The position numbers and the translations under genes are program-made. The notes below the pieces were generated by a model that worked only from the letters and a program-made list of their open reading frames with translations, did not search any database and was not told the origin of the DNA. 57,005 nt of DNA, taken from contig DYJK01000008.1 of assembly GCA_020723165.1 (NCBI GenBank), forward strand, positions 1-57,005, in the 5' to 3' direction. Source of the stretch: Melioribacter roseus (lineage in GTDB: Bacteria; Bacteroidota; Ignavibacteria; Ignavibacteriales; Melioribacteraceae). This document shows, in pieces, positions 11,344-42,049 of this stretch (its first letter is position 1; each line of letters begins with the position of its first letter).

Positions 11344-13992
11344 ATGAATACATTTTTAAATATTCGCAGTTCTTTTTTAGTTGTCACTTTTATCTCATCT
11401 TTTATTATTGCCCAGGGAAATGGAATAACTATTAATGTAATGACTTATAACATTCAGCAAGGTAGTCATTATAATCCGCAGACAACGCCGCAAGCTGTTG
11501 CCGAGATTATTATTAAGAACGAAATCGATTTTTTAGGTTCGCAAGAACTGCATATAGACGGGGTAAAAAGTTTAAGTTCCTTATTACCAAATTATGAATG
11601 GTTTGGTGTAGGCAGAGACAATGGTAAAGAAGTTGGAGAAACCGGTTGTATCTTTTTTGATAGCAGCAAATATAAACTCCTGGAACAGTCAACTTTTTGG
11701 TTGTCAACAACACCGGATGTTATTGGAAGCAAAAGCTGGAATGCTGCTGATGTAAGAATTGTAACATGGGGAAAATTTCTTGTCGTCTCCGATTCAAGCA
11801 TTGTTTATCTGTTCAATACTCATTATGATCATATAAGCAGTTTGGCGCGTTTAGAAAGTTCTAAACTGCTGTTAAAAAAAATTTATGAAATTGCCGGGAT
11901 GAATCCGGTTATCGTCACCGGTGATTTTAATATGATAAGCAGTTCTCAAGAATACAATCTTCTTGTTGATGACTATTATAACTATCTGCATTTATACGAT
12001 GCACAGTCTAAATCAGTAAATGGCAGTACCGGGCCGCCAGGTACATTTAATAATTTTACAACTAATTATCCTACAGAAAAAATCGATTTCATTTTTGTTA
12101 ATCCATTTTTTGATGTTATTACACATGCTGTGTTAACAGATAAATATGATAACGGTGAATTTATTTCCGATCACTTCCCGGTTAGAACCCAGTTAAAATT
12201 GAAATACCCATCGGCACCAATCACACCGGAATTAATAACAGTCAGCGGTAACAATAAAGTTACACTCTACTGGAATTCCATTTCAGAAAAAGAAACCGTT
12301 GAAACGTTTACCGACTCAACGAATGATTTTCAAGGTTACAAACTTTATAAATCAAGAACACCAGGTATGGAAGATGCCGTTCTTGTTCCCGGGAAATGGG
12401 ATATACCTTTATTAAGAGATCCGCTTTTCGAATGTGATTTAATTGATGATAAACAAGGTTACACAAATTATGGAATTGTGAACGGCTTCGGTTATTATCT
12501 TGGTGATAACAGCGGCATTCAACATTTTTATATAGATGAAGATGTTCAGAACGGACAAACATATTATTACGTTCTAATAGCTTATGATCATGGCATACCT
12601 GGTATGGCAGATGGTTTTCCACCAATGGAAACACCATTTATTCTTAATGTTAATGCTGATGGAAATATTTTAAACAAATCGTCAAATGTTGGTATTGCAA
12701 AACCGGAAGAACCAACGCAAGAAAAACCGGTACCGGGAGTTACTTTAGAAAATAATATTACCGGAGGTACCGGCACAGTAAGTGTTAAAATTATTGATCC
12801 GTTGAAGCTTAAAAATGGTAGATACAAAATTAAATTTGATGTTGATACACTTAATTATAATGCGGTTACAAATCCTAAGTACAGAAGTAATAGAGATATA
12901 TATTTTGTTAACACCGGTATCAATGTAATTTCTATGAAAAATGATTCGGTGATCTACAAAGAAAATCGTTTGAGCTATTCAGCACGTAACCTGGTTTTAA
13001 ATCCATACTTGAATTATTATTTTCTCAACACAACTGAACCGGTAACTACCGATGAGATCGATGGTTTCCAGGTTGTACTGGATGATCTTGTAGAGAGAGC
13101 AGAATTCGATACAGATAAATCGGGCTGGAAAACTGGAAACTCAAATATTCAGATTCTGCCTTCATCTAAAGAAGCATATTATTTCCCATGGAATTGTGAG
13201 ATTCGTTTTGGTGAACAATATACTGGACGAACATCAACATTAAAATCGATCTATGATGCCAATGGTAATATTGTAGCTTACACACAATTACTTTTAAATC
13301 ATACATTCGATTTCAGTGTTGTGAGCAAAGATTTCCCCGATGAAAAACTTGATCTGGTTGTGTATGACACAAACCTAAACGGTTTATTCGATTATGGTCA
13401 GGATAAAGTATTGGCCGGTTATTGTGTTCAGCTTGCAAATAAAGTTTATTGGGCCGGAACGGTCTTTTCCATCTCGTTTGAATATACAAGTGGAAATTTG
13501 CCGGTATCCGGGGATGTATATGAATTATTTTTTAAGAAACCGTTTTTAGATTCGGACGAAATTGTTTTTAGCGTTGATGATGATATTACTTCGGTTAGTC
13601 CGGGCAACGATCAAGAACTCATTACGGATTTTTCACTAAGTCAAAATTACCCGAACCCGTTTAATCCAACGACTACAATAAGGTACACAATACACACCCC
13701 CACCTTCGGTGTCACCTCTCGAGAGGGGAATCAAAAGGGTGTGTTCGTAACATTGAAGGTTTACGATATTCTCGGTAGAGAAGTAACAACTCTAGTCAAT
13801 GATTTTCAGCAGCCCGGGAAATATTCAGTGCAATTTAATGTAAAGACGCGCCATCAGCCTCGACAAGGCGGAGGCTTGACGGGTGGCGCGTCTCTACCAA
13901 GCGGTGTTTACTTTTATACATTAAGAGTTAGTCCTTTGGGAAATACGGGGCGTGAATTTCAGAAAACAAAAAAAATGTTACTGTTAAAATGA
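11344..13992 (+). CDS. Exported endonuclease/exonuclease/phosphatase-fold enzyme with T9SS domain
   Basis: Metal-dependent phosphodiesterase or phosphatase of the EEP superfamily, 882 residues, exported (signal ending FISSFIIAQ). Catalytic landmarks in order: MTYNIQQG, Gln-Glu with E68, NTHYDH, GDFN (D194, N196), KIDFIF and SDHFPV (D276, H277). This matches the subfamily common in Bacteroidetes glycan loci; relatives include inositol-polyphosphate 5-phosphatases and sphingomyelinases. Residues about 290-745 repeat the module seen in the 1173-residue protein at 3864 (FQGYKLYK, YYLGDNSGIQHF, YYYVLIAYDHG, KVYWAGTVFSI). The C-terminal T9SS domain carries two palindromic inserts. The gene lies 182 bases before the inositol operon, which suggests, but does not prove, a substrate such as an inositol phosphate or phosphoinositide. 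Confidence 0.85.
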   Translation: MNTFLNIRSSFLVVTFISSFIIAQGNGITINVMTYNIQQGSHYNPQTTPQAVAEIIIKNEIDFLGSQELHIDGVKSLSSLLPNYEWFGVGRDNGKEVGETGCIFFDSSKYKLLEQSTFWLSTTPDVIGSKSWNAADVRIVTWGKFLVVSDSSIVYLFNTHYDHISSLARLESSKLLLKKIYEIAGMNPVIVTGDFNMISSSQEYNLLVDDYYNYLHLYDAQSKSVNGSTGPPGTFNNFTTNYPTEKIDFIFVNPFFDVITHAVLTDKYDNGEFISDHFPVRTQLKLKYPSAPITPELITVSGNNKVTLYWNSISEKETVETFTDSTNDFQGYKLYKSRTPGMEDAVLVPGKWDIPLLRDPLFECDLIDDKQGYTNYGIVNGFGYYLGDNSGIQHFYIDEDVQNGQTYYYVLIAYDHGIPGMADGFPPMETPFILNVNADGNILNKSSNVGIAKPEEPTQEKPVPGVTLENNITGGTGTVSVKIIDPLKLKNGRYKIKFDVDTLNYNAVTNPKYRSNRDIYFVNTGINVISMKNDSVIYKENRLSYSARNLVLNPYLNYYFLNTTEPVTTDEIDGFQVVLDDLVERAEFDTDKSGWKTGNSNIQILPSSKEAYYFPWNCEIRFGEQYTGRTSTLKSIYDANGNIVAYTQLLLNHTFDFSVVSKDFPDEKLDLVVYDTNLNGLFDYGQDKVLAGYCVQLANKVYWAGTVFSISFEYTSGNLPVSGDVYELFFKKPFLDSDEIVFSVDDDITSVSPGNDQELITDFSLSQNYPNPFNPTTTIRYTIHTPTFGVTSREGNQKGVFVTLKVYDILGREVTTLVNDFQQPGKYSVQFNVKTRHQPRQGGGLTGGASLPSGVYFYTLRVSPLGNTGREFQKTKKMLLLK
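13693..13743 (+). repeat. In-frame palindromic insert, T9SS loop 1 (EEP gene)
   Basis: Nested inverted repeat inside the sorting-domain coding sequence. The outer arms are CACACCC and GGGTGTG; the core is the perfect palindrome CCTCTCGAGAGG (13715-13726). It adds about 14 residues (TPTFGVTSREGNQKG region) between NPTTTIRYTI and VTLKVYD, where the beta-helix gene's sorting domain has only a short loop. Reading frame is kept. Confidence 0.75.
13840..13897 (+). repeat. In-frame palindromic insert, T9SS loop 2 (EEP gene)
   Basis: The arms AGACGCGCCA (13844-13853) and TGGCGCGTCT (13884-13893) are perfectly complementary. An inner GCCTC/GAGGC pair lies between them. The element begins GTAAAGACG and ends CGTCTCTAC, like the shorter elements at the same protein position in the two arylsulfotransferase-fold genes. 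It adds about 15 residues before LPSGVYFY, in frame. Confidence 0.8.
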
Positions 13993-14174: not shown

Positions 14175-15362
14175 ATGAGAACCGTTTCATTATTTGCATC
14201 ATGGGATCCAAAACCCGGTTTTGTATTAGGGCAAAAAGATATCGAAGGAAAGCTGACATATTTAGGAAGCAAAGTCTGGCGTAATCCTTACATTAAAATA
14301 GTTGAGAAAGAAGTACGTGATATAAAACCTTCCGAAGTTCTAATAGAAGTGAAAGCTTGCGGCATTTGCGGCAGCGATGTTCATATGCGTCAAGCCGATA
14401 AAGACGGGTACATTTATTATCCCGGACTTACTGCTTTCCCAAGCACACTGGGTCATGAATTTTCCGGGCAAGTAGTTGCAGCCGGTGAATTAGCAATTAA
14501 TAAAAGAACAAATAAAAGATTCGAAATTGGTGAAGCGGTCTGTTCCGAAGAGATGATGTGGTGCAGCTGTTGCAGACCATGTTCCGATGGTTTTCCCAAC
14601 CATTGTGAGAATCTTCAAGAGATCGGGTTTTCATGTGATGGCGCTTATGCAAAATATATAGTTGTCGATTCACGTTATCTATGGAGTATTGAAGGTCTCC
14701 GGAAAAAATACGGTGAAGAAAAAATGTGGCTTCTCGGAAGTTTGGTCGAACCAACCTCGGTTGCTTATAATGCTGTTATAGTTAGAGGCGGAGGAATATG
14801 TCCCGGTGAAAATGTCGTTGTACTTGGCGCCGGTCCGGTAGGAGCCGCTGCATGTGCAATTCTCAGTAAAGCCGGTGCCGCAAATGTTATCCTCTCTGAA
14901 CCATCCGCATCTAGAAGAGAGATGGCTTTATCGATCGGCGCTACCCACGCAATCGATCCTACAAAAGTAAATGTTGCTGAAGCTGTTTTAGATATTACTA
15001 ATGGTCACGGCGCAAAATTGATTCTTGAAGCTACCGGTCTACCAAGCGTTGTCTGGAAAGATGTTGAAAGAATTATCTGGGAAGGTAGAGCTGTTAATAC
15101 AACCGTTGTTGTTGTTGCCCGTGCAGATGATCGTATTCCGGCTAATGGTGAAGTTTACCAGGTGAGAAGAGCAAATATTGTTGGAGCGCAAGGGCATTCG
15201 GGCCACGGAACGTTTCCTAATGTAATTAATTGTATATCATCGGGTATGGACGTATCACCGATGATTACTAAAAAAATTAAGCTTGATGAAGTTGAAAAAA
15301 ATCTTGTGATGCTTCAAACCGACCGTGATGAAGTAAAAATAACTGTTACGGATTTTGAATAA
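14175..15362 (+). CDS. iolM: scyllo-inosose 3-dehydrogenase (IolM-type zinc MDR dehydrogenase)
   Basis: Cytoplasmic zinc-dependent medium-chain dehydrogenase, 395 residues. In Thermotoga maritima IolM (TM0412) oxidises 2-keto-myo-inositol to a diketo-inositol using NAD. This protein matches what I recall of TM0412 through its whole length, including the family-specific N-terminus (SWDPKPGFVLGQKDIEGKLTYLGSKVWR). Zinc and fold motifs: ACGICGSDVH, GHEFSG, the structural-zinc cysteines in MMWCSCCRPCSDGFPNHC, and the Rossmann motif GAGPVGAAACA. Also shared are SLVEPTSVAYNAVIVRGGG and VGAQGHSGHGTFP. AAGGAT upstream supports the ATG. It starts an operon with iolN 23 bases downstream and iolO after that, the same enzyme trio as in Thermotoga. 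Confidence 0.88.
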   Translation: MRTVSLFASWDPKPGFVLGQKDIEGKLTYLGSKVWRNPYIKIVEKEVRDIKPSEVLIEVKACGICGSDVHMRQADKDGYIYYPGLTAFPSTLGHEFSGQVVAAGELAINKRTNKRFEIGEAVCSEEMMWCSCCRPCSDGFPNHCENLQEIGFSCDGAYAKYIVVDSRYLWSIEGLRKKYGEEKMWLLGSLVEPTSVAYNAVIVRGGGICPGENVVVLGAGPVGAAACAILSKAGAANVILSEPSASRREMALSIGATHAIDPTKVNVAEAVLDITNGHGAKLILEATGLPSVVWKDVERIIWEGRAVNTTVVVVARADDRIPANGEVYQVRRANIVGAQGHSGHGTFPNVINCISSGMDVSPMITKKIKLDEVEKNLVMLQTDRDEVKITVTDFE

Positions 15363-15385
15363 ATAAAAGTAGGAAGGAGAATAAA

Positions 15386-16480
15386 ATGTCAAAATGGATA
15401 AAAGCAGATCGGGGAGATATTCTTTTCGAAGATACATCCGTAGGAAGATTGAAAAAGAAAATATGGGATGCTTCCGATGGAGAGATAGAAAAAATTTTAA
15501 GTGAATATGAAATTCCGTCATCATCGGAATTGGGAAAACCCGGTACATACATTCAGACTACTATACGTAAAAATGTAATAGAGAACCGAAAAAAGAACGA
15601 TATACTTTTTATTCCAATCGGCTGCACGGAATTACACGGCATGCACACTGTTTCTGCATTGGATACTTTCATGGTAACGCAAATACTTGAAGGAGTAAGA
15701 AGGTTCACGGCAAAAAAGGGAAACCCGGTAAATCTAAGTTGGACGCCGCTCAATTTTGGCGGTCATCCGCATCACCATGTTGGAATGCCGGGCACAATTC
15801 ACCTTGAAGATGAAGTTGTAAAAAAAATATTGATTGATGTGATGGTTGGTTTTTGGAATGACGGATTTAGAAAAATAATTTTGGTCAACAACCACGGGCA
15901 TTCATGGCTTCTCGAAGCGGCTATCCAGGAATTACAAAAAACATGGAACCTACCGGGAATATTTAGAACAATTGATTGGCACAGAGCCGTTCGGGAATTT
16001 TTCCGTACTAAGGATAGAGGCGGTGATTGGGATGATGATTTCGTTCATGCAGATGAAGCCGAAACTTCTGTGCTGCTCTTATTAGCTAAAGAATTTGTTG
16101 AAATGAATTATGCTGAAGAGACAAAAGTTCCGCATTATTTACCGGAAGGACATTTTGATAAAGCTGTCGATCCGTTTGGAAGGCCTTCGCGATGGTCTGA
16201 AGGTCAAGGTCATTTTCCAACAGAGATTGGTTCTGTTCCAGAGGGTGTAGTTGGAAGACCAACAATAGGTACTGCTCAAAAAGCAAAGAGAACCATTGCG
16301 GCTATTCTTTCTTATTTAACTTTAGTTCATGATGAAATTTTTGAAGCATTCCCTTCGGGAAAAGTACCGCCGATAGAAAAAACAACGCTGAGAACGGAAA
16401 AAGAAATGGAACCATTCCTTAAAGAACCTTTTAGCGAAGGATGGCGGCCGGTTTATGCCATTAATAAAATGGGATTGTGA
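15386..16480 (+). CDS. iolN: 3-dehydro-scyllo-inosose hydrolase (IolN, creatininase family)
   Basis: Creatininase-family metal-dependent hydrolase of 364 residues, longer than typical creatininases (about 250), as expected for IolN. In Thermotoga this enzyme opens the diketo-inositol ring to 5-keto-L-gluconate. Visible metal and active-site features: IPIGCTELHGMHTVSALDTF (Glu-His and Asp), FGGHPHHHVGMPGTIHL, VNNHGHSW and HADEAETS. Start supported by GGAAGGAG at 15371-15378. Its stop is followed two bases later by the ATG of iolO, so the two are probably translationally coupled. Assignment rests on family plus the diagnostic neighbour pair. Confidence 0.85.
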   Translation: MSKWIKADRGDILFEDTSVGRLKKKIWDASDGEIEKILSEYEIPSSSELGKPGTYIQTTIRKNVIENRKKNDILFIPIGCTELHGMHTVSALDTFMVTQILEGVRRFTAKKGNPVNLSWTPLNFGGHPHHHVGMPGTIHLEDEVVKKILIDVMVGFWNDGFRKIILVNNHGHSWLLEAAIQELQKTWNLPGIFRTIDWHRAVREFFRTKDRGGDWDDDFVHADEAETSVLLLLAKEFVEMNYAEETKVPHYLPEGHFDKAVDPFGRPSRWSEGQGHFPTEIGSVPEGVVGRPTIGTAQKAKRTIAAILSYLTLVHDEIFEAFPSGKVPPIEKTTLRTEKEMEPFLKEPFSEGWRPVYAINKMGL

Positions 16481-16482
16481 TA

Positions 16483-17292
16483 ATGAAATTAAGCATTGTT
16501 CTATCTACACAACCAACTTCATTTTCTGCTCTTGCATACAAAGGTGAAATCGAGAGCAACATAAAAAAAATTAAGGAGTTCGGTTACGATGGTGTTGAAC
16601 TTGCTGTAAGAAATCCTGAAGAGTTAGATATTGAATTCATCGAATCCATTATTTTAAAAAATGACCTAATTGTTCCGGCTATCGGTACCGGGCAAGCTTT
16701 TGTAGAAGAAGGTTTATCATTTACTAATCCTGATCCTGGAATCAGGCAGAAAGCAGTAGGTAGAATAATCGATCAGGTACACCTTGCCAAAAAATTTAAT
16801 GCAATGGTGATCATTGGTCTTATCAGGGGAGTTACAGCAAAGAATTATGATCGGGAGAAAGCAGAATCGGATTTGGTTGATGCTTTGAGAAGTTGCGCAG
16901 CTATCGACCAAGAAATAAAAATTTGTATCGAGCCGGTGAATAGGTATGAAACAAATTTAATTAACACTGCTGATGAATGTTTGAAAATAATTGAGAGGGT
17001 TGGTAAACCAAACGTAGGAATATTGTTAGATACGTTTCATATGAATATTGAGGAAGTATCGATTACAGAGAGTATTAAAAAAGCCGGCAATAAGTTATTC
17101 CATTGTCATGCAGCAGATTCAAACAGATGGAGTCCCGGCAAAGGGCATATTGATTTTGCATCTGTATTAAAAACACTCAAAGAAATTGGTTACAACGGAT
17201 TTATATCGGTGGAGATATTACCGTTACCTTCTCCCGATTTAGCCGCAAAAGATTCTGTTGTATATCTCAAAAGTTTATTAGGTAAACAATAA
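16483..17292 (+). CDS. iolO: 5-keto-L-gluconate epimerase (IolO-type TIM barrel)
   Basis: Sugar-phosphate-isomerase / AP-endonuclease-2 family TIM barrel, about 269 residues. In Thermotoga, IolO (TM0416) converts 5-keto-L-gluconate to D-tagaturonate. Shared blocks: MKLSIVLST at the N-terminus, GYDGVELAVRNPEELD, IGTGQAFVEEGLSF, VIIGLIRG, CIEPVNRYETNLINTADECL, GILLDTFHMNIEEV and CHAADSNRWSPGKGHIDF. The Glu, Asp and His residues in the last three carry the metal in this fold. A GTG at 16477 overlaps the iolN stop, but the ATG at 16483 is preferred. The tagaturonate-processing enzymes (UxaB, UxaA) are not in this window. Confidence 0.85.
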   Translation: MKLSIVLSTQPTSFSALAYKGEIESNIKKIKEFGYDGVELAVRNPEELDIEFIESIILKNDLIVPAIGTGQAFVEEGLSFTNPDPGIRQKAVGRIIDQVHLAKKFNAMVIIGLIRGVTAKNYDREKAESDLVDALRSCAAIDQEIKICIEPVNRYETNLINTADECLKIIERVGKPNVGILLDTFHMNIEEVSITESIKKAGNKLFHCHAADSNRWSPGKGHIDFASVLKTLKEIGYNGFISVEILPLPSPDLAAKDSVVYLKSLLGKQ

Positions 17293-17339
17293 TCACAGAT
17301 TCATTTAGTTGTAAACTATAACGCAAGCGAGGAGAAAAA

Positions 17340-18374
17340 ATGAAAGCACTAGTTTATAAAAGTCTTGGGAAAATTCAGTTGGAAGAAAGACCGGTCCCCA
17401 AAATTAGTTCTGAAAACCAGGTACTGTTAAAAGTAATTGCGTATGGAATTTGCGGAACGGATGTGAAAATTTTGGAAGGAAAACACGCTGTTGGGAACAA
17501 CAACATTTTGGGTCATGAGTTTGTTGGTACTGTGGTAGATAAAGGTTCGGGGGTTACAACATTAAATATTGGTGATCGTGCCGCTGTTGATAATAGTCTC
17601 CGCTGCGGACTATGTGAGCATTGTAGAACCGGTAACAGTAGCCAATGTGATTGGTTGAAAGATAAATCGATTGGAATTTTCCAGGATGGCGGCTATGCAG
17701 AATATTGTATTCTACCTGAAAACGCTTGCTACAAAGTACCGGATGAAATTGACGATATCACCGCTACACAAATTGAAACTTTAGGAACTGTGCTAAACGG
17801 GATGAATATAGTTCAGATGCAATGTTATGATTCGGTTGTAATATTAGGTTTTGGACCAATCGGTTATTTGTTTTCTGCACTTGCAAAGAATGTTGCGTCA
17901 AAAGTTATGGTAACGGAAATCGATGAATTTAGAAGAGGGGTAGCAAAGCAGCTTGGTGTGCCCGTTTTTGATCCCAACTCGGTTGATCTTGAAAAAGAAG
18001 TTATGAAATTTACAAATGGTAAAGGGGCCGATATTGTGATTGATGCATGCGGAAGCCAATTAGAAAATGCGATTAAATATGTAGCACCTGGTGGAAAAAT
18101 TTTAGCGTTTGGAATGGACAGCAGCATCAAAGCTACGATTACACCAAATACAATTACTAGGAAGGCAATTAAAATTCTCGGTTCTTACATCGGGCAGAAT
18201 ACTTGTTTACCGGCTATTAAAATTTACCAGGCAAAAAAAATTGATATGAAACCTTTCTTTACCGAGGTGATAAAATTAGAAAATGGTGTCTCGGCTTTTG
18301 GTAAACTTGGGCTCGATCTTGGAACCCTAAATCATATTCCTAAAAAAGCGATGAAGATTGTAATTCAACCATAA
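17340..18374 (+). CDS. Zinc-dependent MDR dehydrogenase in the inositol operon
   Basis: Medium-chain zinc dehydrogenase of 344 residues, of the sorbitol/threonine dehydrogenase type. It has YGICGTDVKILEG, GHEFVGTVV, the four-Cys structural-zinc segment CGLCEHC...SSQCDW and the Rossmann motif GFGPIGYLFSA. A strong GAGGAG precedes the ATG. It follows iolO by 47 bases and so is probably co-transcribed. Its substrate is unknown. Two options are open: it performs the first step (myo-inositol to 2-keto-myo-inositol) in place of the missing GFO/IDH/MocA-type IolG, or it reduces the final keto-acid such as D-tagaturonate. It is only a general paralog of IolM and lacks the IolM-specific N-terminal extension. 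Confidence 0.82.
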   Translation: MKALVYKSLGKIQLEERPVPKISSENQVLLKVIAYGICGTDVKILEGKHAVGNNNILGHEFVGTVVDKGSGVTTLNIGDRAAVDNSLRCGLCEHCRTGNSSQCDWLKDKSIGIFQDGGYAEYCILPENACYKVPDEIDDITATQIETLGTVLNGMNIVQMQCYDSVVILGFGPIGYLFSALAKNVASKVMVTEIDEFRRGVAKQLGVPVFDPNSVDLEKEVMKFTNGKGADIVIDACGSQLENAIKYVAPGGKILAFGMDSSIKATITPNTITRKAIKILGSYIGQNTCLPAIKIYQAKKIDMKPFFTEVIKLENGVSAFGKLGLDLGTLNHIPKKAMKIVIQP

Positions 18375-18463: not shown

Positions 18464-19972
18464 ATGAAAACAAGAATATTAACTGCTTCGCTGTTTCTTC
18501 TTACATATACAATTGTTATCCTAGGTCAACAAACAGTAAATAAAAATTTTATCCCGGTTTTACCTACAGATACAAAAAATGAAATAATAAGCAAAGCTGC
18601 TAATATTATTCCGACACAACAACAATATGATTGGCAAAAGATGGAGTACATTGCTTTCCTCCACTTTGGTATAAATACTTTTACCAATAGAGAATGGGGT
18701 GAAGGAAATGAAGATCCGAAAATTTTCAATCCAGAAAAACTTGATGCTGAGCAATGGGCAAAAGCTCTCAAAGATGCCGGTATGAAGATGGCAATTTTAA
18801 CTGCCAAACATCATGATGGTTTTTGTTTGTGGCCGAGTAAGTATACAGAACATAGTGTCAAAAACAGCACATGGAAAAACGGCAAAGGTGATGTAGTCGG
18901 TGAATTTACAGATGCTTGCAGAAAATACGGATTAAAAGTAGGTCTCTACCTTTCACCATGGGATAGAAATAATCCTCTGTACGGCGATTCACCAAAGTAC
19001 AATGAATTCTATCTCAATCAATTGCGCGAACTATTAACCAACTATGGGGAAATATCTGAAGTATGGTTCGATGGTGCATGCGGCGAAGGTCCAAATGGAA
19101 AAAAACAAATATACGATTGGCAGTCATATTACAAGTTGATTAGAGAGCTTCAACCTAAAGCGGTTATATTCGGTATGTCTCCAGATTTAAGATGGGTTGG
19201 AACTGAAACCGGCTACGGAAGAGAAACCGAATGGAGCGTTATACCGATTGATTTGGGTAATGTTAATATTGATAACCAGTACCCACTTGATGAAATTTAT
19301 TCTCCTCATGATTATGTAGATAATGATTTAGGAAGTCGGGAAAAATTATACGAATCAAAAGGAATGTTCTGGTACCCGGCAGAAGCTGATGTATCGATCC
19401 GTCCCGGGTGGTTCTATCATAAGAGTCAGGATGATTCGGTGAAATCGGTCGAAAAATTGCTTGATATCTATTTTAGTTCTGTTGGAAGAAACTGTGTGCT
19501 GCTTCTTAATATTCCACCGGATCAAAACGGGCTGCTCTGCCAAAAAGATGTTGATACTATTAAAGCCTTGAAAAATATTATTGATAAAACATTTAATAGA
19601 AATTTGGCAGAAGGATCTAAAGTTGTTGTTGATGAAGATAAAAGCGAAATAAGCTATGAATCGTTTTTCCAAAAGAGAGAATTATTAACCGGTAGAGAAG
19701 ATATTACATTGAATTTTGTACTTACCGCTGAAATAAGCTTTGATGTTGTAATGCTTCAAGAAGATATTATGACTGGACAGCGAATTGAAAAATTTCATTT
19801 AGATTATTGGAACGGTGAAGAATGGATCAAATTTACAGAAGGAACCACTGTTGGTTATAAACAGTTGCTTCGGTTCAGCCCGGTTGAAACAAATAAAGTT
19901 CGTCTTGTAATCGAACAATCAAGAGCAAATCCGTTGCTTGCCAATTTTGGATTGTTCAAATTGAATAAGTAA
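18464..19972 (+). CDS. Alpha-L-fucosidase, GH29
   Basis: Exported GH29 exo-fucosidase, 502 residues, signal peptide ending near TIVILGQ. GH29 barrel motifs: MEYIAFLHFGINTFTNREWG, LTAKHHDGFCLWPS, GLKVGLYLSPWDRN and EVWFDGACG. In the last, D203 is the expected catalytic nucleophile. The C-terminal 110 residues are a small beta-sandwich domain (FHLDYWNGEEWIKF, RLVIEQSRANPLL), as in other GH29 enzymes. There is no T9SS tail, so a periplasmic location is likely. It lies 89 bases after the inositol operon and may be in the same transcript. Confidence 0.9.
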   Translation: MKTRILTASLFLLTYTIVILGQQTVNKNFIPVLPTDTKNEIISKAANIIPTQQQYDWQKMEYIAFLHFGINTFTNREWGEGNEDPKIFNPEKLDAEQWAKALKDAGMKMAILTAKHHDGFCLWPSKYTEHSVKNSTWKNGKGDVVGEFTDACRKYGLKVGLYLSPWDRNNPLYGDSPKYNEFYLNQLRELLTNYGEISEVWFDGACGEGPNGKKQIYDWQSYYKLIRELQPKAVIFGMSPDLRWVGTETGYGRETEWSVIPIDLGNVNIDNQYPLDEIYSPHDYVDNDLGSREKLYESKGMFWYPAEADVSIRPGWFYHKSQDDSVKSVEKLLDIYFSSVGRNCVLLLNIPPDQNGLLCQKDVDTIKALKNIIDKTFNRNLAEGSKVVVDEDKSEISYESFFQKRELLTGREDITLNFVLTAEISFDVVMLQEDIMTGQRIEKFHLDYWNGEEWIKFTEGTTVGYKQLLRFSPVETNKVRLVIEQSRANPLLANFGLFKLNK

Positions 19973-20130
19973 ATGTCAAGCTGTTAAAATCTCACTAACC
20001 TCGATAGCATATCTTAGATAATCTGCGCTTGTACATATTTTTACCGCTTTCACTGAATTTATTTATCATACCAAAAATATTTTTTCTAAATTAAAGCTAA
20101 ATTTTCAAAAAACTAAATTTGGAAACATCA

Positions 20131-21234
20131 ATGGAAAAATCTGGAGATAATAGGTTAGTGTCACTTGATGCATTGCGCGGATTTGATATGCTATGGATTG
20201 CCGGCGGAGAAACAATGATTCGTTCTCTAAAAGATTATACCGGCTGGGATTGGCTGGTCTGGTGTTCAACGCAGCTCGATCATGTTGAATGGAATGGTTT
20301 TCATTTCTACGATTTAATTTTTCCACTCTTCCTTTTTCTATCCGGTGTTACAATGCCTTACTCGCTTACCCGTCAATTGGAAAAAGGAATTCCCAAAAGT
20401 GATATTTATAAAAAAGTAATTAAGAGAGCATTACTGTTAGTTCTGTTTGGTGTAATATATAATGGTCTGTGGGACTGGCATATTTCACAAATTAGATTTG
20501 CATCTGTTCTTGGGCAAATAGGTATTGCATACCTTTTCGGGGCTTTGATATTCTTAAATACAAATTGGAAGCAGCAAATTTACTGGGTTGTAGGAATTTT
20601 GCTTGGTTACTGGGCAATTCAAGTTTTAATTCCGGTACCGGGATATGGTGCCGGTGTGTTGACTAAAGAAGGAAGTATTAATGGTTTCATCGATAGGCTT
20701 TTTATGCCGGGGCAACTCTACCTAGGGATTCACGACCCTGAAGGTTGGCTTGTTAAAATATCTGCAACTGCCACAGCATTACTCGGCGCTCTTACCGGCA
20801 CTTTTATCAAAAGCGAAATGTTAGATAAGAAAAAGAAAGCGCTATTCTTGTTTGGTGCTTCGATTGCCCTATTACTTTTTTCACTGTTATATGATTTGGT
20901 ATTACCTATCAACAAAAATCTTTGGACAAGTTCATTCGTAATTCATACAGCCGGCTGGTCGATACTCCTCTTATCAATATTCTATTTTATAATTGATGTA
21001 ATGAATTTCAAGGGCTGGTCATTCTTCTTTGTTGTTATCGGGATGAATTCTATAACTATTTACATGCTGCGGTCACTGGTTGATTTCAACGGACCGATGC
21101 AGCATATCTTCGGGGGATTAATAGCATTTGCCAATACCGGTTTACAACCGATCATAGCTGCATGTTTAGTAGTATTTATAGAATGGGTTCTCCTTTATTT
21201 CTTTTATAATAAAAAAATATTCTTGAAGGTTTAA
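20131..21234 (+). CDS. NagX / heparan-alpha-glucosaminide N-acetyltransferase-like membrane protein (DUF5009)
   Basis: Polytopic inner-membrane protein of about 367 residues in the DUF5009/DUF1624 acyltransferase family. The family includes human HGSNAT, which acetylates terminal glucosamine, and bacterial NagX found in chitin/GlcNAc loci. Signature elements: the N-terminal SLDALRGFDMLWI, an Asp-His in TQLDHVEWNGFHFYDLIFPLFLFLSG (the His of this segment is the family's active site), then about ten hydrophobic helices. A TTG at 20119 is in frame, but the ATG at 20131 with GGA about eight bases upstream is a better start. With GH20, NagB and ROK genes further on, a role in GlcNAc handling is plausible. 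Confidence 0.8.
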   Translation: MEKSGDNRLVSLDALRGFDMLWIAGGETMIRSLKDYTGWDWLVWCSTQLDHVEWNGFHFYDLIFPLFLFLSGVTMPYSLTRQLEKGIPKSDIYKKVIKRALLLVLFGVIYNGLWDWHISQIRFASVLGQIGIAYLFGALIFLNTNWKQQIYWVVGILLGYWAIQVLIPVPGYGAGVLTKEGSINGFIDRLFMPGQLYLGIHDPEGWLVKISATATALLGALTGTFIKSEMLDKKKKALFLFGASIALLLFSLLYDLVLPINKNLWTSSFVIHTAGWSILLLSIFYFIIDVMNFKGWSFFFVVIGMNSITIYMLRSLVDFNGPMQHIFGGLIAFANTGLQPIIAACLVVFIEWVLLYFFYNKKIFLKV

Positions 21235-21283
21235 TTCTTATGGATGCTTATCTATTTTGGATTTAATAAAGTTTCACTTAGAA

Positions 21284-23092
21284 ATGAAAATCAAATTCGT
21301 TATACTATTAGCTTTTATCCTTACAAGCATCCAGCTTTCTGCATCAGGAATTCAAAATAGGTCTACCCGGAACAGACTTTCCGGAATTCCTAAGTTTAAT
21401 ATTACCTATTCCACCGGTTGCGATACTAATTATATTTTTTTGGCTACAACCACTTCTCTATCGCCCTTCATAATGATAATTGATAATAACGGCGAACCGA
21501 TTTTTTGGAAAAACACCGTTGGCGGTGCTTATGATTTTAAACCGCAGCCAGATGGAACATTATCTTATTACGATCTCAAGATGGATTGCTTTTATATATT
21601 AGATAAGAATTACAATCTCATCGATAGTGTAAGATGTTTGAACAGTGTGCAGACTGATATACACGAATTAAGAATTCTTCCGAACGGGAATTACTTAATT
21701 CTTGGACGCGATGATAATCATCAAGCTGATCTAAGCGGTGTTGTTGATGGAGGCCGTACTTCCGCTACTATCATCAGCTATACAATTCAAGAGATTGATA
21801 AGAACAAGAACCTTGTCTTTGAATGGAATACCTGGGATAATTTTGAAATCACCGATACCTATTCTGATCTTAAACAAGGAACGATTGATGTATCACACGG
21901 TAATTCACTCGAAATAGATTTTGACGGTAATTTTTTAGTATCATTTAGAAATACCCAGGAAGTTACCAAGATAGACAGAGTAACCGGGGAAATTATTTGG
22001 CGTTTGGGTGGAAAGAAGAATCAATTCACTTTTATAAACGATACTTTAGGATTTTCATGGCAGCATGCCGCAAGAAGATTACCTAACGGAAATATTATGC
22101 TTTTTGATAACGGGTTTCGTCGAGAACCGGCTATAATGGCATTTTCAAGAGCATTAGAATATAAAGTAGATGAAATAAATAAAACTGCAACTTTAGTTTG
22201 GGAATATAGAAATGTGCCGGATGTTTACAGTATAGGACTTGGTTATTCGCAAAGGTTACAGAACGGCAACACATTCATTGCGTGGGGCGCTGCAACACCG
22301 GCAATAACTGAGGTAACACAGGGTAAGGAAGAAGTATTTGAGTTATCATTCGTTGAAAATTATTCAACGTACCGTGCCTATCGCTTTCCCTGGAATTTTG
22401 AAAAAGTTAATAACGGTTTGGATATAATTTCCACAATTGATAAATGTAATTTCAACGTTAATAAAATGGATGATACTGCTTCAGTGGAAATTTGTTTGGT
22501 TAACAGCAATTCGTTTAATGTAGCTGTCACATCGATAACAAATAATGAGAGAACTTTTTACATACCATTTGAATTCCCGGCGCAAATAAATAAGGAAGAC
22601 AGTTTAAAATTCAGAGTTTACTTCAGACCAAATTTATCAGGGCAGTTTGTTGATACATTAAAGATTACAACCAATATTAATGAAATTCTAATTCCACTTT
22701 CGGGGAATGTTACAACAGATTTAAAAGAATCAGATCCTTATTTGGCAACAGACTTTTGCTTGGAACAAAATTATCCAAATCCGTTTAACCCAAGCACTAC
22801 AATAACATACACAATTTCGACCCCATCCCTTGCCCCTCCCCTTAGTAAGGGGAGGGATATGGGAGGGGTTGTAACTTTAAAAGTTTATGATATCCTTGGA
22901 CGTGAAGTTGCAACACTTGTTGATGAATACCAGCAACCGGGAAAATATTTTGTACAACTTGATGTAAAGACGTTGCATGCAACGTCTTTACCAAGTGGAG
23001 TATATTTTTACACATTACGGGTTTGGGACTCTTCTCCCGATAAATCGGGATCAGAGTTCAAAGAAACAAAAAAGATGTTACTACTCAAGTAA
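21284..23092 (+). CDS. Arylsulfotransferase-fold exported protein with ASH-like and T9SS domains
   Basis: Secreted protein of 602 residues. The ATG at 21284 gives a proper signal peptide (KIKFVILLAFILTSIQLSASG); a TTG at 21257 is less likely. Residues about 30-380 match the arylsulfotransferase (ASST) propeller: DIHELRILPNGNYLILGRD, VSHGNSLEIDFDGNFLVSFRN, IDRVTGEIIWRLGGKKNQF, WQHAARRLPNGNIMLFDNG and QRLQNGNTFIAWG. An ASH/HYDIN-like Ig domain follows (about 390-480), then a T9SS domain interrupted by three palindromic inserts. True ASST enzymes move sulfate between phenols; whether this relative does so on a glycan or phenolic is unproven. It is paralogous to the protein at 43151. Confidence 0.82.
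   Translation: MKIKFVILLAFILTSIQLSASGIQNRSTRNRLSGIPKFNITYSTGCDTNYIFLATTTSLSPFIMIIDNNGEPIFWKNTVGGAYDFKPQPDGTLSYYDLKMDCFYILDKNYNLIDSVRCLNSVQTDIHELRILPNGNYLILGRDDNHQADLSGVVDGGRTSATIISYTIQEIDKNKNLVFEWNTWDNFEITDTYSDLKQGTIDVSHGNSLEIDFDGNFLVSFRNTQEVTKIDRVTGEIIWRLGGKKNQFTFINDTLGFSWQHAARRLPNGNIMLFDNGFRREPAIMAFSRALEYKVDEINKTATLVWEYRNVPDVYSIGLGYSQRLQNGNTFIAWGAATPAITEVTQGKEEVFELSFVENYSTYRAYRFPWNFEKVNNGLDIISTIDKCNFNVNKMDDTASVEICLVNSNSFNVAVTSITNNERTFYIPFEFPAQINKEDSLKFRVYFRPNLSGQFVDTLKITTNINEILIPLSGNVTTDLKESDPYLATDFCLEQNYPNPFNPSTTITYTISTPSLAPPLSKGRDMGGVVTLKVYDILGREVATLVDEYQQPGKYFVQLDVKTLHATSLPSGVYFYTLRVWDSSPDKSGSEFKETKKMLLLK
22819..22870 (+). repeat. In-frame palindromic insert, T9SS loop 1 (first ASST gene)
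   Basis: The core CCCTCCCCTTA / TAAGGGGAGGG (22834-22856) is a perfect inverted repeat around a single G, flanked by CCCCATCCC-like and GGGAGGGGTT arms. It encodes a Pro/Gly/Lys-rich loop (PPLSKGRDMGG) between TITYTI and VVTLKVYD. The same core occurs at 45841 in the same protein position of another gene. Confidence 0.85.
22964..22991 (+). repeat. Perfect 28-bp palindrome, T9SS loop 2 (first ASST gene)
   Basis: The sequence is GTAAAGACGTTGCA followed by its exact reverse complement. It adds about five residues (KTLHATS) before LPSGVYFY. I recall near-identical palindromes (GTAGAGACGTTGCA...) being dispersed in Bacteroidetes and cyanobacterial genomes, which points to a mobile palindrome; that needs a database search. 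Confidence 0.85.
23035..23050 (+). repeat. Palindromic insert, T9SS loop 3 (first ASST gene)
   Basis: TCCCGAT and ATCGGGA flank a two-base centre, giving WDSSPDKSGSEF between YTLRV and KETKKMLLLK. Sorting domains without inserts have only a few residues here. Confidence 0.65.
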
Positions 23093-36583: not shown

Positions 36584-38365
36584 ATGCAGTTAACAATAAC
36601 CGACCTTTTTGTAATATCGTTATACTTCATATTTAACCTATTAATTGCTCTTTGGCTGCGTAAAAGAGCAACACAAAATGTTAGCGAATTTTTTATTGCC
36701 GGTAAAAAAGTTTCGTGGTGGCTTGCCGGAACATCGATGGTTGCTACAACTTTTGCTGCAGATACTCCTCTTGTTGTAACGGGTTTAGTTGCTGCTAACG
36801 GTATTGCCGGTAACTGGATCTGGTGGAGTATGGCTTTTAGCGGCATGCTTACAGTATTCTTTTATGCCAAACTTTGGAACCGGTCCGGTGTGTTGACAGA
36901 TGTTGAATTTGCAGAGATTAGATATAGCGGAAAACCGGCTACGTTTTTACGCGGATTCAGAGCTATCTATTTGGGATTACCAATTAATCTAATAATTATG
37001 GGATGGGTCAATCTTGCTATTGCAAAAATTCTAATGAGTGTTTTAGGTGTCTCAAAGGTTGAAGCGCTCGGTATTGCTTTATTGATAATGTTTATCACTG
37101 CTTCAATTTCTACTATCTCCGGGTTGTGGGGAGTACTGTGGACAGACCTATTTCAATTTGTTTTGAAAATGGGGATGGTAATAGCACTTGCTATCTTTGC
37201 AGTACATGCAAGCGGCGGTATGGATTCATTGATAGGTAAATTGCACGAGATTGATCAAGCAAGAGATCCGTCAAGTTCAATTTTATCATTTATCCCTGAT
37301 ATAAATTCTGCATGGATGCCGATGATTACATTCTTCGTGTTCATTGCAGTTAACTGGTGGGCTTCATGGTACCCAGGTGCAGAGCCCGGTGGCGGTGGAT
37401 ACATTGCCCAGAGAATTTTTTCTGCTAAAGATGAAAAACATTCCTTACTTGCTACTCTTTGGTTTAACATTGCCCATTATGCAATAAGACCCTGGCCATG
37501 GATTCTTGTAGCTTTAGTTGCTGTTGTCAGGTTTCAAAATGATCAGCAATTTATTGATGACCCGGAATCCGGGTACATAAGAATTTTGCTTAGTGATCTG
37601 CCAATTTATTTAAGAGGTTTGATGCTTGCTGCATTTGCCGCTGCTTATATGTCAACTATCGGAACGCAGTTAAACTGGGGTGCAAGCTATATAGTTAATG
37701 ATGTTTACAAAAGATTTTTAGTTAAAGAGAAAACTGAAAAACATTACGTAAAAATTTCGCAAGCTGTAACAATGCTGCTAATGCTTTGTTCCGTAATCGT
37801 TACTTTTTATATGGATTCTATTGCTAACGCCTGGAAAATTTTAATGGCAGTCGGAGCCGGTACCGGACTTGTATATATTCTAAGATGGTTCTGGTGGCGG
37901 ATAAATGCATGGAGTGAAATATCGGCAATGAGTGCAGCATTTATCACATCATTGGTTTTACAATTTGGGTTTAATTATAATGAAAACGATCCGCGGGAAT
38001 TTGCAATTCTTCTTTTAATTACCGTTGCAGTTACAACTGCAGTTTGGCTAGTTGTAACTTTTTTAACAGAACCGGAACCAAAAGAGATATTATTAAAATT
38101 CTATAGAAAAGTTAGACCCAACGCAACAATGTGGGGTCCGATTGCAAAAGAAGCAGTAGATGTGATTCCCGAAAGAGATGGAATATTCAACCTGGTAAAT
38201 TGGTTGACCGGTGTAGCTATGATCTACTCATTCTTGCTCGGCATCGGGAAAATAATTCTTGGAAGTGAGGCGGTTGGAATATTACTTACCTTATTGGGTT
38301 TTGTTCTCGGCGGAATAATCTATTATAGAATAAACAAGAAAGGATGGCAGACCTTAAAACAATAG
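36584..38365 (+). CDS. Sodium:solute symporter (SSS family), amino-sugar locus
   Basis: Inner-membrane SSS/SLC5-type sugar symporter of 593 residues with some 13-14 hydrophobic helices. It starts MQLTITDLFVISLYFIFNLLIALWL and has the family motifs FFIAGKKVSWWLAGTSMVATTFAADTPLV, GLWGVLWTDLFQF and PWILVALVAVV. Its gene is followed 62 bases later by the NagB-LmbE fusion and then two ROK genes, so GlcNAc or a related amino sugar is the most likely substrate. That is inference from context; the sequence alone does not fix specificity. Confidence 0.9.
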   Translation: MQLTITDLFVISLYFIFNLLIALWLRKRATQNVSEFFIAGKKVSWWLAGTSMVATTFAADTPLVVTGLVAANGIAGNWIWWSMAFSGMLTVFFYAKLWNRSGVLTDVEFAEIRYSGKPATFLRGFRAIYLGLPINLIIMGWVNLAIAKILMSVLGVSKVEALGIALLIMFITASISTISGLWGVLWTDLFQFVLKMGMVIALAIFAVHASGGMDSLIGKLHEIDQARDPSSSILSFIPDINSAWMPMITFFVFIAVNWWASWYPGAEPGGGGYIAQRIFSAKDEKHSLLATLWFNIAHYAIRPWPWILVALVAVVRFQNDQQFIDDPESGYIRILLSDLPIYLRGLMLAAFAAAYMSTIGTQLNWGASYIVNDVYKRFLVKEKTEKHYVKISQAVTMLLMLCSVIVTFYMDSIANAWKILMAVGAGTGLVYILRWFWWRINAWSEISAMSAAFITSLVLQFGFNYNENDPREFAILLLITVAVTTAVWLVVTFLTEPEPKEILLKFYRKVRPNATMWGPIAKEAVDVIPERDGIFNLVNWLTGVAMIYSFLLGIGKIILGSEAVGILLTLLGFVLGGIIYYRINKKGWQTLKQ

Positions 38366-38427
38366 AAATGGTTTTTAAATTGGCCCAGTAAAAATTAATA
38401 TAATTGGTAGAAGGAAGGAGTTGATAA

Positions 38428-40797
38428 ATGGACAGTAGTCCGTATGAAGATAAACAGATACAAAACATTTCAAAAGTTGAAGAATATTATCTTGGTATAT
38501 CAGGTAAGAAAATTATATACAGCCCAACGGAAAAGATTCCGGTAATCCAGGTTAATAATTTCCCGGAACTTGGCAGATTAACAGCGCTACGTTTTATTGA
38601 ATGGGTTCAACAAAATCCTGATGGAGTTATATCTTTACCTACCGGTAAAACACCAGAACATTTTATTAAATGGGTAGGATATTTCTTGAAAAACTGGAAT
38701 CACAAAAGCGTAGTTGAAACTTTTGAGAAAGCCGGTTTGGATCCTTCGATAAAACCCGATATGCAAAGTCTGCGCTTTGTTCAAATAGATGAATTCTATC
38801 CAATCGATTCTTTTCAGCATAACAGTTTTTACTATTACATACAGAAATATTATTTCCGCAATTTTAATCTTGATCCTAAGAAAGCATTACTAATTAATGT
38901 TAATGAAATTGGTACGGCAGATGATCTCCCTCTCGATCAAGTTTTCCCCGAAAAAATTGTTGACTTAACATTACGAACAAGATGGGCAAGCAGCCGGTTA
39001 GAGAGAATTCAAAAACGAACCATAGAAATTGTTGATGAGTTCTGTACTAACTATGAAAGAAAAATTAGGGAGATGGGGGGAATCGGGTTTTTCCTCGGCG
39101 GCATTGGTCCCGATGGTCATATCGGGTTTAATATTCAAGGGAGCGATCATTTTTCAACAGCACGTTTAATTGCTACAAATTACGAAACCCAGGCAGCCGC
39201 TTCCGGCGATTTGGGCGGAATAGAAATTGCACGCAACCGGTTGGTAATTACCATTGGTCTTGATACAATTACATATAACGAAAATGCAGTTGCAATTATA
39301 ATTGCCGCCGGTGAAGCAAAAGCAAACATCATACGCGATTCTATTGAGAATACACAGCAGAATAAATACCCGGCTACGGTTCTTCAGAAACTTAAGAATG
39401 CAAAATTTTATTTGACACATGGTGCATCATTACGCTTACGTGAACGCCGTTACGATGATATGGCAAAGGAAGAAACTCTTTCACAATTTTCTATAGAGAG
39501 ATCGATAATTAACCTTGCAGTTGAAAAACAAAAAGAAGTTCTTGATCTGACTGATAAAGATTACAACTCCGACAAGTTTGGTAAATTAATTCTCGAACGT
39601 ACCGGCTTAACAGCAAAAGAGATTAACAAATCGATTCACAGTTCAGTATCCGAAAGATTTAGGAAGGGGATTTCATTAGTTGAAAATGAAACCATACTGC
39701 ATACCGGTCCTCATCACGATGACATTATGCTTGGATATTTACCGTACATAGTGCATCTTGTACGCACTGCGTCGAATTTGCATCACTTTGTAACATTAAC
39801 GAGTGGATTTACCGCTGTAACTAATTCTTACATGCTTGATATTATGGAGAACTTAAAAACTCATTTGAGCAGTGATGAATTCAAATCTAAGTTTTCTGAA
39901 AAATATTTTGACCCGGCATTCCATGAAGGAAAAAACCGCGATGTAAATTTATACCTAGACGGACTTGCATCACACAGCAGAACAATTAAAAGAGAAGCAC
40001 TTGCAAGCAGAGTGCTTCGTTATTTAATCGAAATTTATGAAGAAGATAATCTAAACTATCTTGTTGACCGCGTTGATGAATTAATAAATTACTTCAAAAC
40101 GCAGTACCCGGGTAAAAAAGATATACCGCATGTTCAGAAATTGAAAGGTATGCTTCGCGAATGGGAAGAGGAAATTGTATGGGCTTATTTCGGTTTTAAC
40201 AACAGCAGTGTGTCTCATATGCGCTTAGGATTCTACCAGGGTGAGATGTTCACAGAGAATCCTGAAGTATCAAGGGATGTAATACCAATTCTGGATTTAC
40301 TGAGAAAGGTCAAACCAACAATTATAACAGTAGCACTTGATCCTGAAGGTAGCGGTCCGGATACTCATTACAAAGTTTTGCAAGCTATAACTGAAGCGTT
40401 GAGATTATATGAAAAAGAAGCCGATATCTCCAAGCTGAAAATTTGGGGTTATCGAAATGTGTGGTACCGCTTTCACCCGGCAGAAGCAAACATTTATGTG
40501 CCGGTGAGTTTAAATTCTTTTGCTATCCTCGAAAACATTTTCATGAATAGTTACGGCTCACAGAAAGATGCCAGCTTCCCGAGTTATGAATATGACGGGC
40601 CTTTCTATAGGTTAGCACAAAATATCCAGGTAGATCAATATCGTACTATCAGGTTATGTCTTGGTAAAGATTTTTTTCTTAAACATCCAATACCGCGTGT
40701 GAGAGCTGCACACGGAACGGTCTATTTAAAAGAATTGACACTTGAAGAGTTTTACACAAAATCAATTGAAATTAAGAAAATGACGGAAACCGGGTAA
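38428..40797 (+). CDS. nagB: Glucosamine-6-phosphate deaminase fused to LmbE/PIG-L-type deacetylase domain
   Basis: Two-domain cytoplasmic enzyme of 789 residues. Residues about 35-335 are NagB-like: SLPTGKTPEHFIKW, the catalytic Asp-Glu in VQIDEFYPI and GGIGPDGHIGFN. This activity converts glucosamine-6-phosphate to fructose-6-phosphate and ammonia. Residues about 425-720 are an LmbE/PIG-L-like domain with the zinc motif PHHDD (LHTGPHHDDIMLGYL) and a later Asp-His (DPEGSGPDTHY). Similar long NagB proteins occur in Bacteroides; this one is longer than the roughly 660 residues I recall. If the LmbE domain acts on GlcNAc-6-phosphate, one protein would do both NagA and NagB steps; no nagA is in the window. 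GGAAGGAG precedes the ATG. Confidence 0.87.
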   Translation: MDSSPYEDKQIQNISKVEEYYLGISGKKIIYSPTEKIPVIQVNNFPELGRLTALRFIEWVQQNPDGVISLPTGKTPEHFIKWVGYFLKNWNHKSVVETFEKAGLDPSIKPDMQSLRFVQIDEFYPIDSFQHNSFYYYIQKYYFRNFNLDPKKALLINVNEIGTADDLPLDQVFPEKIVDLTLRTRWASSRLERIQKRTIEIVDEFCTNYERKIREMGGIGFFLGGIGPDGHIGFNIQGSDHFSTARLIATNYETQAAASGDLGGIEIARNRLVITIGLDTITYNENAVAIIIAAGEAKANIIRDSIENTQQNKYPATVLQKLKNAKFYLTHGASLRLRERRYDDMAKEETLSQFSIERSIINLAVEKQKEVLDLTDKDYNSDKFGKLILERTGLTAKEINKSIHSSVSERFRKGISLVENETILHTGPHHDDIMLGYLPYIVHLVRTASNLHHFVTLTSGFTAVTNSYMLDIMENLKTHLSSDEFKSKFSEKYFDPAFHEGKNRDVNLYLDGLASHSRTIKREALASRVLRYLIEIYEEDNLNYLVDRVDELINYFKTQYPGKKDIPHVQKLKGMLREWEEEIVWAYFGFNNSSVSHMRLGFYQGEMFTENPEVSRDVIPILDLLRKVKPTIITVALDPEGSGPDTHYKVLQAITEALRLYEKEADISKLKIWGYRNVWYRFHPAEANIYVPVSLNSFAILENIFMNSYGSQKDASFPSYEYDGPFYRLAQNIQVDQYRTIRLCLGKDFFLKHPIPRVRAAHGTVYLKELTLEEFYTKSIEIKKMTETG

Positions 40798-40857
40798 GTT
40801 TTTATAAAAATATTTTAATCATTGTGAAAAAATTTTAAATAGGATTAATGCTTAAAG

Positions 40858-40998
40858 GAAACTTCTGAAAAATGTTACTTGTCATTTCGATCCCGACAAA
40901 GCCGGGAGAGAAATCTTGCTTCTGACTTGCCTTCGCAAGTAGGTAAGATTTGTCAGCCGCTTCTCCGAAATGACATCTTCGAATTATTCAGAAGTTTC
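40858..40998. repeat. 141-bp nested palindromic repeat element
   Basis: Intergenic element made of four nested complementary arm pairs: GAAACTTCTGAA/TTCAGAAGTTTC (40858/40987), TGTCATTTCG/CGAAATGACA (40880/40966), AAATCTT/AAGATTT (40911/40945) and the central hairpin ACTTGC-CTTC-GCAAGT (40925-40940). The TGTCATTTCG...GAGAAATCTT signature is, to my knowledge, a dispersed intergenic repeat in many Bacteroidetes-related genomes. It probably folds as a long RNA hairpin and lies between nagB and the ROK genes. Confidence 0.82.
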
Positions 40999-41020
40999 TA
41001 AAGGATAATCGATAATTCAC

Positions 41021-41033
41021 AACAATTATTGTT
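41021..41033. promoter_or_regulatory. AACAAT-T-ATTGTT palindrome upstream of ROK genes
   Basis: A perfect 6+1+6 palindrome ends 17 bases before the ATG at 41051. Half-sites match the longer palindrome at 48452 upstream of the arabinose symporter. It is a candidate operator only. Confidence 0.3.
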
Positions 41034-41050
41034 AGGTGGGTTTTTCAAAT

Positions 41051-42049
41051 ATGAGTTCAACTCAAGTTGTTTTAGGTATTGATATCGGCGGTACAAATAC
41101 TGCTTTTGGATTAGTTGATGAAAAAGGTAAATGTTATTTAAATGACCAGATACAAACAGATAGGCATAGCTCGGTTGAATCTTTTTTGATCAAACTTTTC
41201 GAAGCTTTCAATTTACAGTTTGAACAGATTAAAGATGATTTTGAATTAATAGGCATCGGGCTTGGCGCCCCCTCGGCGAATTATTTTAAGGGTACAATCG
41301 ATAACCCGACAAACTTTAGCTGGGGTTATGTTGACATTGTAAAATTAATACAGACTCAATATGCTTTGCCGGTGGTAGTAACAAATGATGCTAATGCGGC
41401 GGCTATTGGTGAATTGAAATACGGTGCAGCAAAAGGTTTGAACAATTTTATCGAAATCACTTTAGGTACCGGTCTAGGAAGCGGTATTGTTGTTAACGGT
41501 TCACTGTTCCATGGTCACGATGGTTTTGCCGGTGAACTTGGTCATATGATTATAGAAGATAAAGGAAGAATCTGCAATTGTGGTAGAAGAGGCTGTCTGG
41601 AAACTTATGTTTCGGCTAACGGAATCAGGAGAACTGTTTTTGAATTGCTGTCGATTTATTCTGTTGAAAGTTGTCTAAGAGATTATTCATATAATTCACT
41701 TACATCAAAATTAATTTATGAAGCGGCATTGAAGAATGATGAAATAGCAAAGATGGCTTTTGAACGTACTGCCGAGAAGCTCGGTAAAGCTTTGGCAAAT
41801 TATGTTGTTCTTCTTAATCCGGAAGCCATAGTTTTGTTTGGAGGTTTAGCGCTAGCCGGGGATCAAATACTTGGTCCGCTCAACCATCATTTCGAAAATA
41901 GTTTGTTGAATCTTTATAAGGGCAAAGTTAAAATTTTGCTTTCAAGTTTAATGGAATATAAAAATGCAGCTATACTTGGTGCAGCAGCTATTATATGGGA
42001 AGAGATTCATAAGAAAAGCCGCGATTTACAAATGCAAGTAATAACTTAA
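41051..42049 (+). CDS. ROK-family sugar kinase
   Basis: Cytoplasmic ROK kinase of 332 residues, probably acting on glucose, GlcNAc or a related hexose. All motifs look intact: phosphate-1 GIDIGGTNTAFG (D11), catalytic Asp in NDANAAAIGE, phosphate-2 LGTGLGSGIVV, sugar-binding ExGH (GELGHMI), zinc cluster CNCGRRGCLE and adenosine motif LFGGLALAGD. A GTG at 41036 is in frame, but ATG 41051 with AGGTGGG about ten bases upstream is better. It forms a tandem pair with the next gene and lies downstream of nagB, so phosphorylation of an amino sugar before NagB is plausible. Confidence 0.9.
   Translation: MSSTQVVLGIDIGGTNTAFGLVDEKGKCYLNDQIQTDRHSSVESFLIKLFEAFNLQFEQIKDDFELIGIGLGAPSANYFKGTIDNPTNFSWGYVDIVKLIQTQYALPVVVTNDANAAAIGELKYGAAKGLNNFIEITLGTGLGSGIVVNGSLFHGHDGFAGELGHMIIEDKGRICNCGRRGCLETYVSANGIRRTVFELLSIYSVESCLRDYSYNSLTSKLIYEAALKNDEIAKMAFERTAEKLGKALANYVVLLNPEAIVLFGGLALAGDQILGPLNHHFENSLLNLYKGKVKILLSSLMEYKNAAILGAAAIIWEEIHKKSRDLQMQVIT

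Follow-up and report, generated by a model that had tools for sequence, protein, structure and literature searches.

The inositol breakdown route of the Thermotoga type is known from a hyperthermophile. In Thermotoga maritima the inositol pathway comprises TM0411-TM0416 (Rodionova et al. 2013, as cited in PMC5931981 and PMC3750489); when tested in PMC3750489, inositol did not support growth of T. maritima. In the L-glucose/L-galactose pathway of Luteolibacter LG18, LguD, an NAD dehydrogenase for L-gluconate/L-galactonate, acts together with the IolO-like 4-epimerase LguG (PMC12632266).

We analyzed a stretch of 57,005 nucleotides (the window) from the draft genome of Melioribacter roseus (3.8 Mb, 193 contigs, 98% complete). 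An earlier note on this DNA had reported, at the same coordinates as ours, that genes for IolM, IolN and IolO of the Thermotoga type are adjacent here and that a fourth gene encodes a second zinc MDR dehydrogenase, which we call MDR2. All four genes were intact and on the + strand, with a 23-bp gap, a 4-bp overlap and a 47-bp gap between them in gene order. The operon and the gene directly downstream of it are as follows.

14175..15362, + strand: iolM, scyllo-inosose 3-dehydrogenase, a zinc MDR (NF041097; structure 3ip1)
15386..16480, + strand: iolN, 3-dehydro-scyllo-inosose hydrolase, creatininase family (NF041098)
16483..17292, + strand: iolO, 5-keto-L-gluconate epimerase, TIM barrel (NF041099; TM_0416)
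17340..18374, + strand: mdr2, zinc MDR dehydrogenase, candidate inositol dehydrogenase for the first step here (ADH_N, ADH_zinc_N)
18464..19972, + strand: secreted GH29-type alpha-L-fucosidase-like protein (PF01120; GH29 relatives 4zrx and 3ues)

The first three genes were assigned with curated NCBIfam equivalog models, each of which has its own cut-off. IolM scored 484 bits against NF041097 (cut-off 450), IolN 300 bits against NF041098 (cut-off 245) and IolO 358 bits against NF041099 (cut-off 300), and the two domains ADH_N and ADH_zinc_N identify the fourth product as a zinc MDR, so that the description of the four genes in the earlier note was borne out. The nearest solved structure to IolM was 3ip1 (583 bits), and that to IolO was TM_0416 of T. 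maritima (2zvr, 262 bits). Because both the profile and TM_0416 align from the methionine at ATG 16483, this codon is more likely to be the IolO start than GTG 16477, which opens the reading frame. IolM shared 80-84% identity with its counterparts in other Ignavibacteria, and IolN 86-91% with its orthologs in the class, the distant G082 being excluded from both comparisons. The branch lengths of IolM, IolN, IolO and MDR2 in this genome were ordinary, and IolO was divergent in every lineage compared; relaxed selection on the operon was therefore set aside. Among the genomes searched, the four-gene order was found in this genome only.

We next considered iolG, since the operon had been described as lacking a GFO/IDH/MocA-type iolG. 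The surroundings of the operon hold no gene of this family, and a tblastn search of the window for remnants of iolG was negative. Family and protein searches of the genome extended this result beyond the operon: they yielded no iolG ortholog and no gene scoring above the cut-off (355) of the iolG model TIGR04380. The genome encodes five GFO/IDH/MocA proteins, of which the best two, on contigs 49 and 180, scored 145 and 131 bits against this model. Whereas the IolG proteins of seven related loci are 47-86% identical to one another, the five proteins share at most about 28% identity with them over any long stretch, and those of contigs 49 and 180 share 22-28%. The gene neighbours of the latter two, judged from their open reading frames, showed no visible link to inositol. 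Taken together, these searches lend good support to the absence of iolG from the draft assembly.

Then, we asked how the operon compares with iolN loci elsewhere. Of 294 class genomes, 7 had IolN above its cut-off, as did 4 of 395 genomes sampled from the phylum. The loci that we read were those of six other genomes of the class, a member of the same family (G318), one KSB1 genome and one Neomarinimicrobiota genome. At every other iolN locus read, iolG was present in the cluster, and most of these loci also carried mdr2. The phylum sample of 395 genomes held no further iolN locus lacking iolG; the loss of iolG was seen in one genome only. Two of the relatives' IolG proteins were scored against TIGR04380: one passed (361) and the other fell just under the cut-off (330), and no other model came near. 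MDR2 orthologs were 64-81% identical, with G082 left out, and in G082 and G255 IolG was present and MDR2 absent. MDR2 (E < 1e-60) occurred in 5 of the 294 class genomes, all five among the seven with IolN, a co-occurrence whose chance probability would be about 1e-9 for independent genomes; these genomes are not independent.

The fuller loci of the relatives encode a GntR-headed regulator with a LacI-type sensor domain, an RbsABC-type ABC transporter, an FAD/iron-sulphur protein, MDR2, an MFS protein of the organophosphate-antiporter type (OPA-type), a PfkB-type kinase and calcineurin-like phosphoesterases. The FAD/iron-sulphur protein, of about 955-957 residues, consists of a GlcD/YdiJ-like FAD oxidase joined to a GlpC-like iron-sulphur part (for example at L054:2130-5003). 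In four relatives (G113, G222, G208 and G082) about 20 kb or less separates the iol genes from a gene for a beta-propeller phytase. The phytase gene of G113 and that of G222 each adjoin a gene for a UxaE-family paralog (about 190 bits; L079:9889-11139 and L080:10505-11749), which may act on a substrate other than tagaturonate. Because of these neighbour genes, the loci of the relatives are probably phytate/inositol loci. A search of the Melioribacter genome found no phytase, and the regulator, the ABC transporter and the FAD/iron-sulphur protein are absent at this locus, in checks that covered the window and a small number of loci. The earlier note held that the pathway appears little described in this lineage. 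We found no description of these Ignavibacteria loci in the open-access text searched.

The relatives also share a palindrome. TTGTCTAnACAA, or a near copy of it, stands about 25-90 bp upstream of both the regulator gene and mdr2 in the Ignavibacteria relatives, and in G113 it also lies upstream of the phytase gene. Where loci were scanned at a tolerance of one mismatch, shuffled sequences rarely or never reached the observed count. We suggest that the palindrome is a putative operator common to the regulator gene and mdr2 in these relatives. In the window we found no copy near the operon; the one match, with one mismatch, was far off and at chance level. Neither an operator nor an inositol transporter was identified for this operon, and matches to sigma-70 promoters in the region did not exceed the chance level.

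We examined the MDR2 protein itself for signs of its substrate. This two-domain zinc MDR passed no curated equivalog cut-off, and the models for threonine dehydrogenase and IolM ranked top. It scored 176 bits against TIGR00692 (L-threonine 3-dehydrogenase; cut-off 458) and 172 bits against NF041097 (IolM; cut-off 450), and it is 27% identical to the IolM of the same operon. Both scores lie far under their cut-offs, and neither assignment is supported. The zinc ligands C38/H59/E60 and C89/C92/C95/C103 and the GxGPxG motif are intact and are conserved among the orthologs, and MDR2 here changes no faster than they do. When MDR2 was used as a query against its own genome, only MDR2 and IolM were matched. 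The nearest solved structures are threonine, sorbitol and other alcohol dehydrogenases, all similarly distant, and they indicate no substrate. A structure model that drew on seven orthologs was of low quality (mean pLDDT 49).

Because the relatives carry iolG, mostly beside mdr2, MDR2 is, judged from gene content and the shared palindrome, an accessory member of a putative inositol (probably phytate) regulon and not a lineage-wide substitute for IolG. In this genome, MDR2 would most likely supply the keto-inositol that IolM needs. It is the best candidate for the source of inosose because IolM needs keto-inositol and because mdr2 has been retained, co-occurs with iolN and appears co-regulated in the relatives. 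Furthermore, IolM is itself an MDR acting on keto-inositol, suggesting that the MDR fold can handle cyclitols. The proposal of the earlier note that MDR2 could replace IolG thus remains the most plausible one here and does not hold as a property of the lineage, where iolG is present.

The explanation that we favor, and to which we give about an even chance, is that the locus is a shortened form of an inositol (probably phytate-inositol) regulon scattered in Ignavibacteria, KSB1 and Neomarinimicrobiota, with MDR2 as the first-step inositol dehydrogenase. Here, iolG and the remaining genes of the regulon would have been lost, and iolMNO and mdr2 kept side by side. MDR2 would oxidize inositol (myo- or another isomer) with NAD to keto-inositol, IolM would convert the keto-inositol to a diketone, IolN would open the ring of the diketone to give 5-keto-L-gluconate, and IolO would epimerize the latter to D-tagaturonate. 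Hexuronate genes elsewhere in the genome, for UxaE, a mannonate oxidoreductase, a nickel hexonate epimerase, an aldolase and a kinase, would complete the breakdown.

The presence of mdr2 beside iolG in relatives suggests that its normal job there differs from the plain myo-inositol step. Given this coexistence, and given that G082 and G255 have IolG and lack MDR2, the substrate of MDR2 in the relatives is probably a different isomer or a related compound; where both enzymes occur, it might handle a second inositol isomer or some related cyclitol alongside IolG. The OPA-type transporter and the PfkB protein beside MDR2 in relatives could point to a phosphorylated or different substrate. More tentatively, and at somewhat less than an even chance, MDR2 may represent a new, non-homologous family of inositol dehydrogenases, such that both ring oxidations are carried out by MDRs here and a second isomer (e.g. 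scyllo- or chiro-inositol, derived from inositol phosphates in soil) is brought into the pathway by MDR2 in the relatives.

We weighed other roles against this one. MDR2 might be an L-gluconate or L-galactonate 5-dehydrogenase giving 5-keto-L-gluconate or D-tagaturonate and thereby feeding IolO in parallel to the inositol branch, as LguD and LguG form such a pair in Luteolibacter (PMC12632266). MDR2 does match the zinc oxidoreductase model PRK10083 (142 bits, below the cut-off of 376), and RspB (4ilk) is among its solved relatives. However, its top scores are to the threonine dehydrogenase and IolM models and not to hexonate enzymes, and this role would leave IolM and IolN, both intact and highly conserved, with no source of inosose here; we consider it unlikely. 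We are similarly doubtful that inosose is made by a protein outside the operon, whether a remote GFO protein or one of another fold, or is taken up ready-made, with MDR2 keeping an accessory role. The coexistence of MDR2 and iolG in relatives agrees with such a role, and the GFO proteins of contigs 49 and 180 do give scores against the iolG model; these scores, however, are far below 355, and neither the low identity of the two proteins to the relatives' IolG nor their gene neighbours suggest a function in inositol metabolism.

The genes for the later steps bear on the possibility, already raised for D-tagaturonate in the earlier note, that MDR2 reduces this compound (to D-altronate) or another downstream keto-acid. 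UxaE is encoded in this genome: PF16257 gave 512 bits on contig 9, and the N-terminal piece is on contig 62. The two pieces (L083:3-1226 and L084:9916-10307) lie on contigs that appear to join. Its cluster also contains uxaC and genes for a KDPG-aldolase-like protein, an SDR mannonate oxidoreductase, a PfkB kinase, a HAD protein and a nickel hexonate epimerase. The SDR D-mannonate oxidoreductase scored 389 bits (cut-off 281) and the nickel-dependent putative hexonate epimerase 668 bits (cut-off 500). No match to PF03786, the UxuA mannonate dehydratase family, was found in this genome, and the cluster without UxuA suggests a detour from mannonate to gluconate. Although mdr2 adjoins iolO, whose product is D-tagaturonate, and the UxuA family is missing here and in two relatives, UxaE, the mannonate oxidoreductase and the hexonate epimerase offer D-tagaturonate a possible outlet that needs no tagaturonate reductase, and this lowers the reductase reading to very unlikely. 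Finally, there is only a slim chance that iolG is present inside an assembly gap: the assembly has 193 contigs and splits at least one gene (uxaE) between two of them, but it is 98% complete, and the operon is interior to its contig with an unrelated secreted protein as its upstream neighbour, so that this reading would require relocation of iolG to another part of the genome.

We also looked at the neighbours of the operon. Directly upstream of iolM, 11344-13992 encodes a secreted protein of the endonuclease/exonuclease/phosphatase family, whose substrate could be an inositol phosphate or lipid. Whether the GH29-type gene directly downstream of mdr2 belongs to the operon is uncertain. In G277, of the same family, a classical inositol operon (IolB, C, D, MMSDH-type, E and G; L106:3637-13431) contains a secreted GH29 gene, the product of which is 68-69% identical to that of 18464-19972, whereas GH29 homologs in other genomes sit with other genes such as nagX. 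The link of the GH29 neighbour to inositol, as a putative inositol-glycosidase, is thus only suggestive. After the GH29 gene, 20119-23092 encodes a NagX-like membrane acetyltransferase (363 bits, under the cut-off of 480) and a secreted arylsulfotransferase-like protein with a T9SS tail. Further downstream, 36584-43062 encodes a protein resembling glucosamine-6-phosphate deaminase, two ROK kinases in tandem and a sodium/solute symporter, which might serve as a carrier for the region.

Taken together, these data place the Thermotoga-type route in Ignavibacteria and other bacteria of the FCB group, in an apparent phytate-degradation regulon, which would tie the route to an abundant organic phosphate. 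The operon is apparently a reduced variant of this wider phytate/inositol regulon, which seems to be undescribed so far. If MDR2 is indeed an inositol dehydrogenase, the entry step would have a second, unrelated enzyme family, and genomes scored as pathway-negative for a missing iolG would need rescoring.

Compared with known systems, the locus resembles the T. maritima pathway in having orthologs of IolM, IolN and IolO over their cut-offs in adjacent genes and UxaE in the genome. Unlike in T. maritima, there is no IolG here, a second MDR is added, UxuA is absent, and no ROK-type IolR or InoEFGK-type transporter was identified at the locus. The classical iolABCDEG operon of G277, in the same family, shares the inositol substrate and has a homolog of the neighbouring GH29 gene, but it proceeds through IolE, IolD, IolB, IolC and a semialdehyde dehydrogenase and not through ring opening by IolM/N/O. 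The Luteolibacter LG18 pathway likewise pairs an NAD dehydrogenase with an IolO-like 5-keto-L-gluconate 4-epimerase toward D-tagaturonate; its substrate, in contrast, is a hexonate, and no IolM or IolN is described for it. The phytase-associated iol loci of the relatives differ in adding iolG, the regulator with its putative operator sites and an ABC sugar transporter, usually together with the FAD/iron-sulphur protein, the OPA-type transporter, PfkB and phosphoesterases, and in four cases a phytase nearby. In the genes that they share with this locus they are alike, with identities, excluding G082, of 75-84% for iolM, 79-91% for iolN, 49-62% for iolO and 64-81% for mdr2.
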